Source: Streptomyces humicola
GTDB lineage: Bacteria > Actinomycetota > Actinomycetes > Streptomycetales > Streptomycetaceae
Reading direction: 5' to 3'
Assembly: GCF_024436035.1 (NCBI RefSeq)
Contig: NZ_JANFNG010000002.1
Location: 496,001-560,000, forward strand
Length of the DNA stretch: 64,000 nucleotides
Shown here one piece after another: positions 24,693 to 55,981 of the stretch (position 1 is the first letter of the stretch; every line of letters starts with the position of its first letter). A model generated the notes under the pieces. That model did not search any database. It was not told the DNA's origin and saw only the letters and a list, made by a program, of their open reading frames with translations. The position numbers were made by a program, and so were the translations under genes.

Positions 24693-25334
24693 ATGGACGT
24701 GCACACCTCCCCCGCATCGGATCTGCCGGATCTGCCGGACCTGCCGGATCCGTCTGCGCTGCTGCCGCTCGCCGAGCGGCTGCGGGCGCTGCCTCCGTCG
24801 TGCGGGCAGGTGCGCCTGGTGGCCGTGGACGGGCACGCGGGATCGGGCAAGACCACCTTCGCCCGGCTGCTGGCCCGGGCTCTCGGTGGCGCGCCCGTGG
24901 TGCACCTGGACGATCTCGCCACGCACGACGGCCTGTTCGCCTGGACCGCGGCCCTGCACGAACAGGTGCTCGAACCTCTGGAGCACGGCGAGGCGGGCCG
25001 GTACGCGGTCTACGACTGGACGGCGCGTCGGTTCGGGGCCGAGCCGCGCGAGGTGCCGTGCGCGCCGGTCGTCGTCGTGGAGGGGGTGGGCGCCGGCCGC
25101 CGCGCCGTCCGTCCTCGCCTGGCGGGGCTGCTGTGGATGGAGTTGGGGCGCGGGGCTGCCTGGGCGCGAGGGCTGCGACGGGACGGTCCGCAGCAGCAAG
25201 GTTTCTGGCAGGGGTGGATGCGCGCGGAGGAGGAGCACTTCGCGGCGGATCCTTCGCGGCCGTACGCCGACCTGCTGGTGCGGCAGGGGCGCGTCGGATA
25301 CGAGGTGCTTCCGGGGCCTGCGGTCCGGACCTGA
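24693..25334 (+). CDS. P-loop kinase-like protein (uridine kinase family)
   Basis: A 213-residue ATP-binding protein. The Walker A motif VDGHAGSGKTTFARLLA is near residue 45, followed by VVHLDDLATHDG, which resembles the substrate-binding DD/D segment of uridine and related kinases. VVVVEGVGAGRRAVRP is the family's third strand. The substrate is not clear; proteins of this type are annotated as uridine kinase-like in actinomycetes without biochemical proof. The N-terminus has short repeats of LPDLPD. The ATG has a TACTCT -10-like hexamer ending eight bases upstream and no ribosome-binding site, consistent with a leaderless transcript. Confidence 0.8.
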   Translation: MDVHTSPASDLPDLPDLPDPSALLPLAERLRALPPSCGQVRLVAVDGHAGSGKTTFARLLARALGGAPVVHLDDLATHDGLFAWTAALHEQVLEPLEHGEAGRYAVYDWTARRFGAEPREVPCAPVVVVEGVGAGRRAVRPRLAGLLWMELGRGAAWARGLRRDGPQQQGFWQGWMRAEEEHFAADPSRPYADLLVRQGRVGYEVLPGPAVRT

Positions 25335-25453
25335 ACCGGCCGCGGCTTCACCGAGCGTGAGGATCCGCCGCCGGCGCTGTGACAATCGCTCCGGCCTCTC
25401 GCCGTTCTCCCGTTGTGACTTTCCACAACTGCAATTCAGTGCGCGAACCCGGC

Positions 25454-25483
25454 TTGACCTGGCGGCCGTGCAGGACTTACGTT
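25454..25483 (+). promoter_or_regulatory. SigA-type promoter for the candidate small RNA
   Basis: TTGACC (25454-25459) and TACGTT (25478-25483) are separated by 18 bp, a good match to the principal-sigma consensus. A GTTGTG-N6-CACAAC dyad lies 24 bp upstream of the -35 and could bind an activator or repressor. Transcription would begin near 25490. Confidence 0.6.
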
Positions 25484-25489
25484 CTCAAT

Positions 25490-25562
25490 ACGCGGTCGGA
25501 ACGGACCGCCCGAAGACACGAAGCCCCCGGTTGTTCCCCCGTGACCGGGGGCTTCGTCCTCT
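25490..25562 (+). ncRNA. Candidate small RNA of about 70 nt
   Basis: Directly downstream of the predicted promoter there is a 6-bp hairpin (GCGGTC 25492-25497 with GACCGC 25504-25509). Next comes a perfect 14-bp hairpin (25518-25531 with 25544-25557) whose loop contains five consecutive C residues. The second hairpin would end the transcript, although no T tract follows. No open frame with a ribosome-binding site lies inside. The promoter-hairpin-terminator arrangement in a gene-free gap suggests a small RNA. The C-rich loop recalls actinobacterial 6C RNAs, but only one such loop is present, so it is not assigned to that family. Confidence 0.5.
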
Positions 25563-25851
25563 CCATGGTGAGCGTAATGCCTGTTTCGCGGCAATCACCC
25601 TCACCCTCCGTCACCATCGCCCCTTGGCCTGTCGACTGCGGCCGATTCGGCCCCGGTTCAACCATCGCCCGGTGCGTCACCCTCTCCCCCTCGCAACACC
25701 GCAGGTACGATGCGATGAAGGGTACCGGCCCGGGGACGGGCGCGGTGCGCGACGGGTCAACTTCCCTCCGGTGCACGGTACTTCCGTGAGCATTCGAGGT
25801 ACTCCGGATCGGAAGACGGCGGCGGGCCAGGGGCACGGTTGTGGGGGACTG

Positions 25852-27747
25852 ATGGACTTCGGGACTGAGCGCTCGGGCGCCCCGGCCGATCTGGCGTGGC
25901 TGCGCGCAGTCGACGCCTACACGGTCGGCGCCTATGCGCAGGCCGAGGAGGAGTTCCGCGCGGCCGTGCGCCTCGATCCCGGGATGGCCGACGCCTGGCT
26001 CGGGCTGCACGCCCTGCGCGCCGAGACCTCGACCGCGCTGCTGCAGATGTACCGCAACCGCGACCGCTTCGGTGAGCAGCGCCGCGCCTTCCACCGGTCG
26101 CTCAACTCCTGGTACTGGCTGGGCTGGTGGGTGCAGCCCGTACTGGAGACCGGCCGCGACCTGCTACTCGCGCACGCCTCGCACTGGCTCGACGGACGGC
26201 ACGTCGCCGACCTGGACCGGGCGCTCGCGGAGTGCTCGCCCATCGACACCGATCCGCAGGTCCGTTTTCTCCACGCCTGCCGGGCGTATCTGGTCAAGGA
26301 CTGGGAGCAGTTGGTGCGGCACACCGAGCCCCTGCTCGACGACCCCGTTCTCGGCATAGAGGCCGGCCTCTTCGGCGGCATGGCACGCGTGCGTCTGGAG
26401 ATGTGCGGACAGGCCGAGCCGCTGCTCGCCGCCGCCCTGATGCGCTGCCGCAGCGAGCAGCCGCAGCGCAAGGAGCTGCGGTACTGGCTCGCCCGCTCCT
26501 ACGAGGGCACGGGACGCTCGGCAGCCGCGCTCCCCCTGTACCGGGCCGTGCACAGGGTCGACCCGGCGTTCATGGACACCTCGGCCCGTCTTGCCGCGAT
26601 CACCGAGGCCGAGGACGGGCTCGACGAGACACCCGACCTCGCCTCGGTGTCGCTCGCGGGCCTCGGCCAGTCGGCACCCGACGGACTGCCGGAGGGTGAG
26701 CCCGCACCCCCGGGGGACCAGGCCGGAGGGCGCATAGCAGGCGAGGCCCAGCCGGCGCCGGCGCCCGAGGCCGCGCCGGTCGACGAGGACGCGGTGCGCG
26801 AACGAGTACGGCTGCCCGTGACGTCCGCCCCGCCGCAGCTGCCGCTGGGCACCCCCGACCCCGTACTGCTCACCAAGGCGCTCGCCGAGCTGGAGCGCAT
26901 GGTCGGCCTGGAGCCGGTGAAGCGGCAGGTCAAGGCGCTGTCCGCGCAGCTGAGGATGGCCAGGCTGCGGGCCGGCCAGGGGTTGCCCGTCCAGCCGCCG
27001 AAACGGCACTTCGTCTTCTCGGGGCCGTCCGGCACCGGCAAGACGACGGTGGCACGGATACTGGGCCGGGTCTTCTACGCGCTCGGGCTGCTCGGCGGCG
27101 ACCACCTGATCGAGGCGGGACGCGCCGATCTGGTGGGCGAGTTCCTCGGCCAGACCGCAGTGAAGGCCAACGAGCTGATCGACTCGGCGCTCGGCGGGGT
27201 ACTCTTCGTCGACGAGGCGTACAGCCTGTCCAACTCCGGCTACAGCAAGGGCGACGCGTACGGGGACGAGGCTCTGCAGGTGCTGCTCAAGCGCGCCGAG
27301 GACAACCGCGACCGCCTCGTGGTCATTCTCGCGGGCTATCCCGAGGGCATGGACCGGCTGCTCGCCGCCAACCCCGGTCTCAGCTCCCGTTTCACCACGC
27401 GGGTCGACTTCCCCAGCTACCGGCCGCTCGAACTCACCCGTATCGGTGAGGTGTTGGCCGCCGAGGGCGGCGACCACTGGGACGAGGAGGCTCTCGACGA
27501 GCTGCGCAGCATCAGCGGCCATGTCGTCGCGCAGAACTGGATCGACGAGCTGGGCAACGGCCGCTTCCTTCGCACCCTGTACGAGAAGAGCTGCGCCTAC
27601 CGGGACCTGCGGCTCTCCGGCTTCCCCGGCACCCCGACCCGCGACGACCTGTCGACGCTGCGCCTGCCGGATCTGATGCAGGCCTACGGGGAGGTGCTCT
27701 CCGGGCGGGGCGCGGACGGCCCCGGCCCGGATCGCACTCCCGACTGA
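25852..27747 (+). CDS. EccA/CbxX-like AAA ATPase with TPR-type N-terminus
   Basis: A 631-residue protein. The first 290 residues are alpha-helical repeats of TPR type (AVDAYTVGAYAQAEEEFRAAVRLDPGMADAWLGL), followed by an Ala/Pro-rich linker. From about residue 345 comes a CbxX/CfxQ AAA+ domain: LERMVGLEPVKRQVKAL, Walker A FSGPSGTGKTTVA, Walker B GVLFVDEAYSL and the sensor region VVILAGYPEGMDRLL. This architecture is that of EccA, the cytosolic ATPase linked to type VII secretion. No other esx gene is nearby, so this copy is an orphan and its substrate is unknown. The ATG at 25852 has GGGGGA four bases upstream. Confidence 0.87.
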   Translation: MDFGTERSGAPADLAWLRAVDAYTVGAYAQAEEEFRAAVRLDPGMADAWLGLHALRAETSTALLQMYRNRDRFGEQRRAFHRSLNSWYWLGWWVQPVLETGRDLLLAHASHWLDGRHVADLDRALAECSPIDTDPQVRFLHACRAYLVKDWEQLVRHTEPLLDDPVLGIEAGLFGGMARVRLEMCGQAEPLLAAALMRCRSEQPQRKELRYWLARSYEGTGRSAAALPLYRAVHRVDPAFMDTSARLAAITEAEDGLDETPDLASVSLAGLGQSAPDGLPEGEPAPPGDQAGGRIAGEAQPAPAPEAAPVDEDAVRERVRLPVTSAPPQLPLGTPDPVLLTKALAELERMVGLEPVKRQVKALSAQLRMARLRAGQGLPVQPPKRHFVFSGPSGTGKTTVARILGRVFYALGLLGGDHLIEAGRADLVGEFLGQTAVKANELIDSALGGVLFVDEAYSLSNSGYSKGDAYGDEALQVLLKRAEDNRDRLVVILAGYPEGMDRLLAANPGLSSRFTTRVDFPSYRPLELTRIGEVLAAEGGDHWDEEALDELRSISGHVVAQNWIDELGNGRFLRTLYEKSCAYRDLRLSGFPGTPTRDDLSTLRLPDLMQAYGEVLSGRGADGPGPDRTPD

Positions 27748-36609: not shown

Positions 36610-36770
36610 CGGGTCCTCCTGCCTCTTCGGGCACGGACTCCGGGGCGATGTGGGACCTAGCGGATGATCGCATCGGGTGACGCCGGGGGCCGGCGAAATG
36701 GCCTCCGCACGCGGTTGATCTTCTCCGCGCACGCCAGCCGCCGACGGCGGCGTACCGATGACGAACCGCC

Positions 36771-36899
36771 GCGCACTGCCTCCCATCCGGACTTTAACCG
36801 TCGGTCCAGGAATTTCACCTGATCAACCGGCCGCTGGCTGCGGACGGGTCGCGGACTTTAACCGCCGGTTCGGAGTTTCACCGACCCCGGAGTGCGCTT
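36771..36899 (-). ncRNA. FMN riboswitch (RFN element)
   Basis: Read on the minus strand, the element has the highly conserved FMN-aptamer blocks: CTCCGGGGTCGGTGAAA at the 5' side, two copies of CGGTTAAAGTCCG-type sequence, the CAGGTGAAATTCCTG-type loop and the closing GGATGGGAGGCAGTGCGC. Spacing and order match RFN elements. It controls ribD-ribE-pnuX-ribBA-ribH downstream, lowering expression when FMN is abundant. Whether it acts on transcription or translation is not evident from the sequence. Confidence 0.97.
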
Positions 36900-54572: not shown

Positions 54573-55796
54573 CTACAGCCCGGCGGCGGCGCGCAGGGCA
54601 TCGACGCGGTCGGTGCGCTCCCAGGTGAAGTCGGGCAGCTCGCGGCCGAAGTGACCGTAGGCGGCGGTCTGGGCGTAGATCGGGCGCAGCAGGTCCAGGT
54701 CGCGGATGATCGCGGCCGGGCGCAGGTCGAAGACCTGGGCGACGGCCTGCTCGATCTTCTCCGTTTCCACCTTGGCGGTGCCGAAGGTCTCCACGAACAG
54801 ACCCACCGGCTCGGCCTTGCCGATCGCGTAGGCGACCTGCACCTCGCAGCGCGAGGCCAGGCCCGCGGCCACCACGTTCTTGGCCACCCAGCGCATCGCG
54901 TACGCCGCCGAGCGGTCCACCTTGGACGGGTCCTTGCCGGAGAAGGCGCCACCTCCGTGGCGGGCCATGCCGCCGTAGGTGTCGATGATGATCTTCCGGC
55001 CGGTGAGCCCCGCATCCCCCATCGGACCGCCGATCTCGAACCGCCCGGTCGGGTTGACCAGCAGCCGGTATCCGTCGGTGTCCAGCTTGATCCCCGAGTC
55101 CAGCAGCGCCTTCAGCTCCGGCTCGACCACGAACTCGCGGATGTCCGGCGCCAGCAGCGACTCCAGGTCGATGTCGGAGGCGTGCTGCGAGGAGACGACC
55201 ACGGTGTCCAGACGCACCGCCTTGTCACCGTCGTACTCGATCGTGACCTGCGTCTTGCCGTCCGGCCGCAGATACGGGATCGTCCCGTTCTTGCGCACCT
55301 CGGTCAGCCGCTTGGACAGCCGGTGCGCCAGCGTGATCGGCAGGGGCATCAGCTCGGGCGTCTCGTCGCACGCGTAGCCGAACATCAGGCCCTGGTCACC
55401 CGCGCCCTGCTTGTCCAGCTCGTCGGCGTCGTCCCTCCGGGCGGCGCCCTCCACGCGGGTCTCGTACGCGCTGTCGACACCCTGCGCGATGTCCGGCGAC
55501 TGCGCACCGATCGACACCGACACACCGCAGGAAGCGCCGTCGAAGCCCTTCTTCGAGGAGTCGTACCCGATGCCGAGAACGGTGTTGCGGACCAGGGTCG
55601 CGACGTCCGCGTATCCCTTGGTGGTGACCTCTCCGGCCACGTGCACCAGACCGGTCGTGATCAACGTCTCGACCGCCACGCGCGAGGAGGGGTCCTCCTT
55701 CAGCAGGGCGTCGAGAATGGTGTCGCTGATCTGGTCAGCGATCTTGTCGGGATGACCCTCGGTCACGGACTCCGAGGTGAACAGGCGGCGGGACAC
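54573..55796 (-). CDS. metK: S-adenosylmethionine synthetase
   Basis: A 407-residue enzyme that makes SAM from methionine and ATP. The family signatures are [20 protein letters not shown] at the N-terminus, the hexapeptide in [13 protein letters not shown] near residue 135, and the P-loop-like [19 protein letters not shown] near residue 285. [30 protein letters not shown] is also typical. The GTG start has CAGGGAG five bases upstream. No SAM riboswitch was recognised in the 185-bp gap to coaBC, but a -10-like TAAACT lies there (55875-55880, minus strand). Confidence 0.97.
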
Positions 55797-55981
55797 ATCG
55801 CTCCCTGGGGTTGCAGCGGCTGCTGACTCATACAGGTCGGCCCGATGCGGGGCTGCGCCCGTCGGACCACGACCAGTTTATCGGTCGAAGCCGCCGGAAG
55901 GGCACATTGTCTCGCACCTTGGATCCAGTGTGACCTGGGACACCGCCCGAAAGGGACACAAAGCCGTGGCCGGCGAACTCG

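Follow-up and report, generated by a model that had tools for sequence, protein, structure and literature searches.

The 64-kb window, that is, the whole stretch of DNA that was analysed, carries what its sequence indicates is a gene for a short RNA, with its own sigma-70-type (HrdB-like) promoter and two hairpins. Judged by gene order and the published description, not by its letters, this RNA is very probably the orthologue of scr1434/sar6912/svr1031. In essence, the RNA is already described as scr1434, and the new elements are a structure backed by covariation, a near-invariant loop, a family-wide distribution and BldD-type boxes. The whole reading, in which we infer identity, BldD binding, antisense action and targets alike, is that an scr1434 orthologue acts through an antisense C-rich loop and that its gene is held down by BldD. 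We regard this reading as reasonably probable.

To our knowledge, few Streptomyces small RNAs have a known regulator or target. The scr1434-type RNA is near-universal in its family and absent from Rfam, and it now has a consensus structure, a loop seed and a candidate regulator. If BldD controls this small RNA, c-di-GMP signalling would extend to post-transcriptional control of development.

Structure and conservation of the small RNA gene

The following elements were located in and around the gene.

25335-25851: intergenic gap of 517 bp between the kinase-type gene (+) and the EccA-like gene (+)
25412-25429, no strand assigned: reported dyad GTTGTG-N6-CACAAC, present, not considered functional
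25454-25483, + strand: promoter TTGACC-N18-TACGTT, from sequence (TTGACC 25454-25459, TACGTT 25478-25483)
25490-25562, + strand: predicted small RNA, scr1434 orthologue, 73 nt, both ends predicted
25492-25509, + strand: hairpin 1, 6 pairs, from folding and covariation
25518-25557, + strand: hairpin 2, 16 pairs, terminator-like, without a U tract
25533-25543, + strand: loop motif GTTCCCCCGTG, near-invariant, probable pairing seed

The promoter named in the original prediction was present, and it is one of only two TTGAC-N16-19-TANNNT sites on both strands of the 64-kb window. It was kept family-wide, including much of the spacer. The spacer at 25460-25477 is itself conserved (GGGGGCCGTACAGGACT in many species). 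Plain sigma-70-type promoters do not usually show this, and the spacer may conceal the site of another regulator. In S. coelicolor, HrdB ChIP-seq covers 75 of 105 small RNAs (PMC6344877), which is consistent with this promoter type for an scr1434-like gene.

The start near 25490 was placed from the position of the -10 box, and the 3' end was set where conservation stops after hairpin 2. The predicted RNA had a minimum free energy of -42.5 kcal/mol compared to -28.1 ± 3.4 in shuffles (z -4.2), in agreement with the two hairpins claimed earlier. In the window sequence, loop 1 is GGAACG with no C run, and loop 2 has five C. A scan for a canonical intrinsic terminator (a G+C-rich hairpin plus a U run) found none, and the tail past hairpin 2 is CCTCT. 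The gene is single-copy within its genome. Among species, RNA length ranged from 71 to 75 nt, and the length differences were not multiples of three, which argues that the gap at 25335-25851 holds no conserved ORF, as the claim of a gene-free context had it. A small ORF inside the RNA was considered and rejected; the ATG near the start in many species is ATA here.

The dyad had been proposed as an upstream regulatory element. It exists, and its role as an operator was rejected: perfect dyads with 6-bp arms and a 6-bp spacer occur 39 times in the 64-kb window, a chance-level count, and the dyad is not conserved. No other part of the gap is as poorly conserved as its region, with 0.05 bits per column for 25400-25419 and 0.34 for 25420-25439. 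Two BldD-type boxes further out are better candidates for regulatory elements.

A BLAST search with 25395-25570 gave matches in 224 of 298 Streptomycetaceae genomes and in 16 of 17 genera, and the carriers included strains of S. griseus, S. olivochromogenes and S. canus. Conservation climbs near 25440, spans the promoter and the RNA, and stops at the end of hairpin 2. A covariance model made from 42 sequences was searched in an order-level sample of 198 genomes and matched 180 of them, nearly all Streptomycetaceae; the window copy scored 97.8 bits. No match to the small RNA was obtained in three small Streptomyces genomes and several genomes of other genera. Candidate homologues beyond Streptomycetaceae were rejected as weak matches of at most 48 bits, and the four inspected were without the C-rich loop and resembled ordinary GC-rich terminators. 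The order of kinase gene, small RNA and EccA-like AAA+ gene was kept in 96-97 of 98 loci. All eight distant-genus loci had the AAA+ gene downstream, and in five of them the kinase gene was detected on the upstream side.

Both hairpins were retained in the 42 near homologues, with five compensated pairs; three of the six pairs of hairpin 1 changed on both sides in this set. In distant genera, the stems of hairpin 2 were very different, for example ACGAGCTGCCGGCC/GGCCGGCAGCTCGT and ACGGCGTCTCCGG/CCGGAGACGCCGT. Nevertheless, 97.7% of hairpin 2 cells paired across genera, and 12 of 18 pairs showed changes on both sides, compared to 3.8 ± 1.4 in shuffles and 0-3 in slid controls. This compensation in distant genera is the strongest structural evidence from the sequence comparisons. 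The loop GUUCCCCCGUG was invariant in the 42 nearer sequences, and only one of 14 sequences across genera carried a single substitution. Since the stems vary yet stay paired while the loop is nearly fixed, the loop would be the working part and the stem its scaffold.

The conservation and the compensatory changes of the RNA are far beyond chance. The small RNA first predicted, about 70 nt long and transcribed from a promoter of its own, is supported by conservation and by compensatory changes in the stems (among the 42 near sequences and across genera), which the original prediction had itself named as a check. It is further supported by the Northern signal for the probable orthologue scr1434 (PMC3765725).

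Neighbouring genes and relation to scr1434 and 6C RNA

The two neighbours of the small RNA gene were as follows.

24693-25334, + strand: upstream neighbour, kinase-like P-loop protein, marginal Pfam PRK match, present ahead of the small RNA gene in 96 of 98 loci
25852-27747, + strand: downstream neighbour, TPR-AAA+ ATPase of EccA-like type, taken from gene order as the SCO1434 orthologue

The EccA-like protein scored above the cut-off for Pfam T7SS_EccA1_N and reached 305 bits for NCBIfam EccA, less than the cut-off of 467. The immediate neighbours of its gene are the kinase, small RNA and CNNM/CBS genes, and recognisable secretion genes are absent there.

Exactly eight genes separate the AAA+ gene from the riboflavin synthase gene, including those for two CNNM/CBS proteins, a small membrane protein and ribBA. 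The eight presumably also include hisG, hisE, ribH and a gene for a PnuC-like protein, as named from their sequences. Because SCO1443 is the riboflavin synthase gene that has an FMN riboswitch (PMC4681348), the eight genes match SCO1435-SCO1442, with the SCO numbers obtained by counting. This makes SCO1434 the most likely identity of the AAA+ gene, and the RNA would be the counterpart of scr1434.

The RNA gene sits at 8.246 Mb on one chromosome of 9,025,608 bp. This length is that of the S. avermitilis chromosome, where 8.246 Mb is about the expected place of gene 6912 of roughly 7580.

Moody et al. 2013 described scr1434/sar6912/svr1031 and named scr1434 after its right-flanking gene (PMC3765725). 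According to that paper, scr1434 is discrete, highly expressed and Northern-positive in three species, its maxima fall at aerial hyphae formation and sporulation, and it has a very stable stem-loop with a C-rich loop (PMC3765725). The present gap is right-flanked by the SCO1434 orthologue, as judged by gene counting and synteny, and the present RNA has a very stable stem-loop with a C-rich loop. The two RNAs also have in common Streptomyces conservation and independent transcription, which for the present RNA is predicted from its promoter. The present copy differs in being placed in a different genus of Streptomycetaceae. Furthermore, the BldD-type boxes and the cross-genus covariation found here are undescribed in the accessible text of PMC3765725. 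The same paper lists scr5583/sar2652/svr5279, which is likewise a conserved Streptomyces small RNA with a C-rich terminal loop (67%). However, scr5583 lies at a different locus and follows a different time course in S. venezuelae, whereas a late peak of scr1434 is common to all three species (PMC3765725). Full-text literature searches found no later functional work on scr1434.

The comparison with Rfam and 6C RNA suggested in the original prediction gave no 6C membership. Nothing at the locus reached an Rfam gathering score, and 6C (RF01066) matched below threshold, at 24.9 bits compared to the gathering cut-off of 47. Like the present RNA, 6C RNA is short and actinobacterial, with two hairpins and a C-rich loop, and these features together with the sub-threshold match are what speaks for a divergent 6C RNA. 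However, both loops of 6C are C-rich, each of its two stem-loops having about six cytosines, whereas the present RNA has one C-rich loop of two, and a C run in loop 1 was rare among the 42 sequences. In addition, 6C occupies a different locus: a separate 6C gene with 47.6 bits, above the cut-off, is located elsewhere in the same genome (C66:225797-225872). A divergent 6C RNA is thus very improbable.

An FMN riboswitch (36769-36899, - strand) and a Streptomyces-metK RNA (55801-55915, - strand) of the window both scored above their Rfam gathering scores. A BldD-like 13-mer was located at 55753, beside the metK RNA.

BldD-type boxes flanking the gene

The BldD consensus is nTnACnC(A/T)GnGTnAn, as quoted in PMC7374567 and PMC4151990. 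One box on each side of the small RNA gene resembled it.

25347-25361, no strand assigned: upstream BldD-type box TTCACCGAGCGTGAG, one mismatch to nTnACnCWGnGTnAn
25600-25614, no strand assigned: downstream BldD-type box CTCACCCTCCGTCAC, one mismatch to the BldD consensus

With one mismatch each, the window boxes are insignificant when taken alone. Across 81 loci, a 15-bp box with at most one mismatch was present upstream in 54 (0.4% of shuffles) and downstream in 71 (0.3% of shuffles), and almost none occurred at other offsets. The centre of the upstream box lay at -114 from the predicted start in 28 loci and at -104 to -102 in 16, or about one turn in or out. The centre of the downstream box lay at +117 to +121 in 53 loci and at +128 to +131 in 12. 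From locus to locus, the distances change by roughly one helical turn at a time, which is no independent test since the loci are related.

Together, the two flanking boxes suggest BldD control of the small RNA gene. BldD represses sporulation genes during vegetative growth (PMC4151990); such repression fits the late timing of scr1434 and would explain its developmental expression. In the proposed mechanism, BldD-(c-di-GMP) bound at the two boxes would hold the gene down in vegetative hyphae of Streptomyces and close genera. The two sites, roughly 114 (or 104) bp before the start and 118 bp after it, could possibly be joined by a DNA loop, and the gene would be released during aerial growth and sporulation. 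The boxes are near the promoter, as expected for the BldD regulon, and in the window each is separated from the start by over 100 bp. This distance is long for simple steric repression and counts against BldD control. The downstream box may instead serve the EccA-like gene. Most of the more distant genera lacked the boxes; therefore, the control, if real, would be restricted to Streptomyces and its nearest relatives. No earlier description of BldD-type boxes flanking this small RNA was found in the literature consulted.

The flanking boxes could also be sites for MtrA (or GlnR), given that GTNAC half sites are common to these regulators and that development is also under MtrA (PMC13189361). 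However, MtrA of Streptomyces recognises direct repeats, GtnAcC-n5-GTnAcn, whose period is 11 (PMC13189361), whereas the present boxes are TNAC-N5-GTNA palindromes with a central C(A/T) and period 10. We consider MtrA or GlnR unlikely, and BldD is kept as the candidate regulator.

Candidate action of the C-rich loop

Transcription from the sigma-70-type (HrdB-like) promoter would yield an RNA about 73 nt long, in which hairpin 1 would protect or space the 5' end and hairpin 2 would end the RNA and display the near-invariant loop. The most likely mechanism, a candidate derived from the analysis, is antisense pairing of the loop as a seed with G-rich ribosome-binding sites of the core CACGGGGG/GGGGGA. 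Pairing would change, and probably lower, translation of the target mRNA, in the way that 6C RNA uses its C-rich loops. A precedent for antisense action by C-rich loops is 6C of M. tuberculosis (Mai et al. 2019, as cited in PMC8628891). The direction of regulation is uncertain because 6C in mycobacteria is reported to have a positive effect on panD and dnaB (PMC8628891).

That the loop pairs with G-rich ribosome-binding sites had been suggested from the start; the idea fits the near-invariant loop, and no recurring target was found. Among 14-nt near matches in trans, no orthologous leader recurred, and the one shared near match was not at a recognisable start codon. Exact 11-nt complements of the loop in ten genomes were scattered sites, a few of them just before start codons, with no recurrence in orthologues.

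Such a loop, conserved across genera with no conserved mRNA complement found, would also fit an RNA that works via a protein, with GUUCCCCCGUG being recognised by an RNA-binding protein or an RNase. No such protein is known to us. Furthermore, the C-rich loops of actinobacterial 6C act on mRNAs (PMC8628891). Recognition by a protein is a doubtful alternative, and antisense pairing remains the preferred action.

The adjacent EccA-like mRNA was examined as a target.

25843-25848, + strand: GGGGGA before the EccA-like start codon, candidate pairing site for the loop

A G run of at least five (5-6) before the start codon was present in 78 of 79 loci and is complementary to the C run of the loop, with 8-9 nt matches in some species. 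In this genome, the predicted duplex of loop and EccA-like leader ranked about tenth of 28 local leaders, whose starts were guessed by a crude rule. The leader is G-rich and conserved, but its pairing here was not stronger than that of several other leaders. On sequence grounds, it is a weak target candidate.

The small RNA lies on the same strand as the EccA-like gene and always upstream of it, and the G-rich leader is complementary to the loop. These points would fit a promoter and attenuator or terminator in a long EccA-like leader, acting in cis, in place of an independent small RNA. However, Moody et al. list a discrete, highly expressed small RNA (PMC3765725), conservation drops sharply past hairpin 2 and the BldD-type box, and the EccA-like gene could have its own promoter in a separate, conserved TACGAT-like element (25706-25711). 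A cis-acting leader is quite unlikely compared to the independent small RNA.

A more specific proposal places scr1434 directly within the BldD/c-di-GMP developmental switch, as its RNA arm. BldD would bridge the phased boxes during vegetative growth. Once the gene is released, the loop would change translation of a set of mRNAs with G-rich ribosome-binding sites, that of the EccA-like ATPase first. This proposal is speculative, and we consider it improbable in this full form.

Two further conserved stretches were observed upstream of the EccA-like gene. The block CGCAGGTACGATGC at 25700-25714 may be the gene's own extended -10 promoter. The leader at 25817-25854 reads (A)CGGGGGCACGGTTTGTGGGGGA-ATG in many species, with two G runs, and is conserved beyond the need of a ribosome-binding site.
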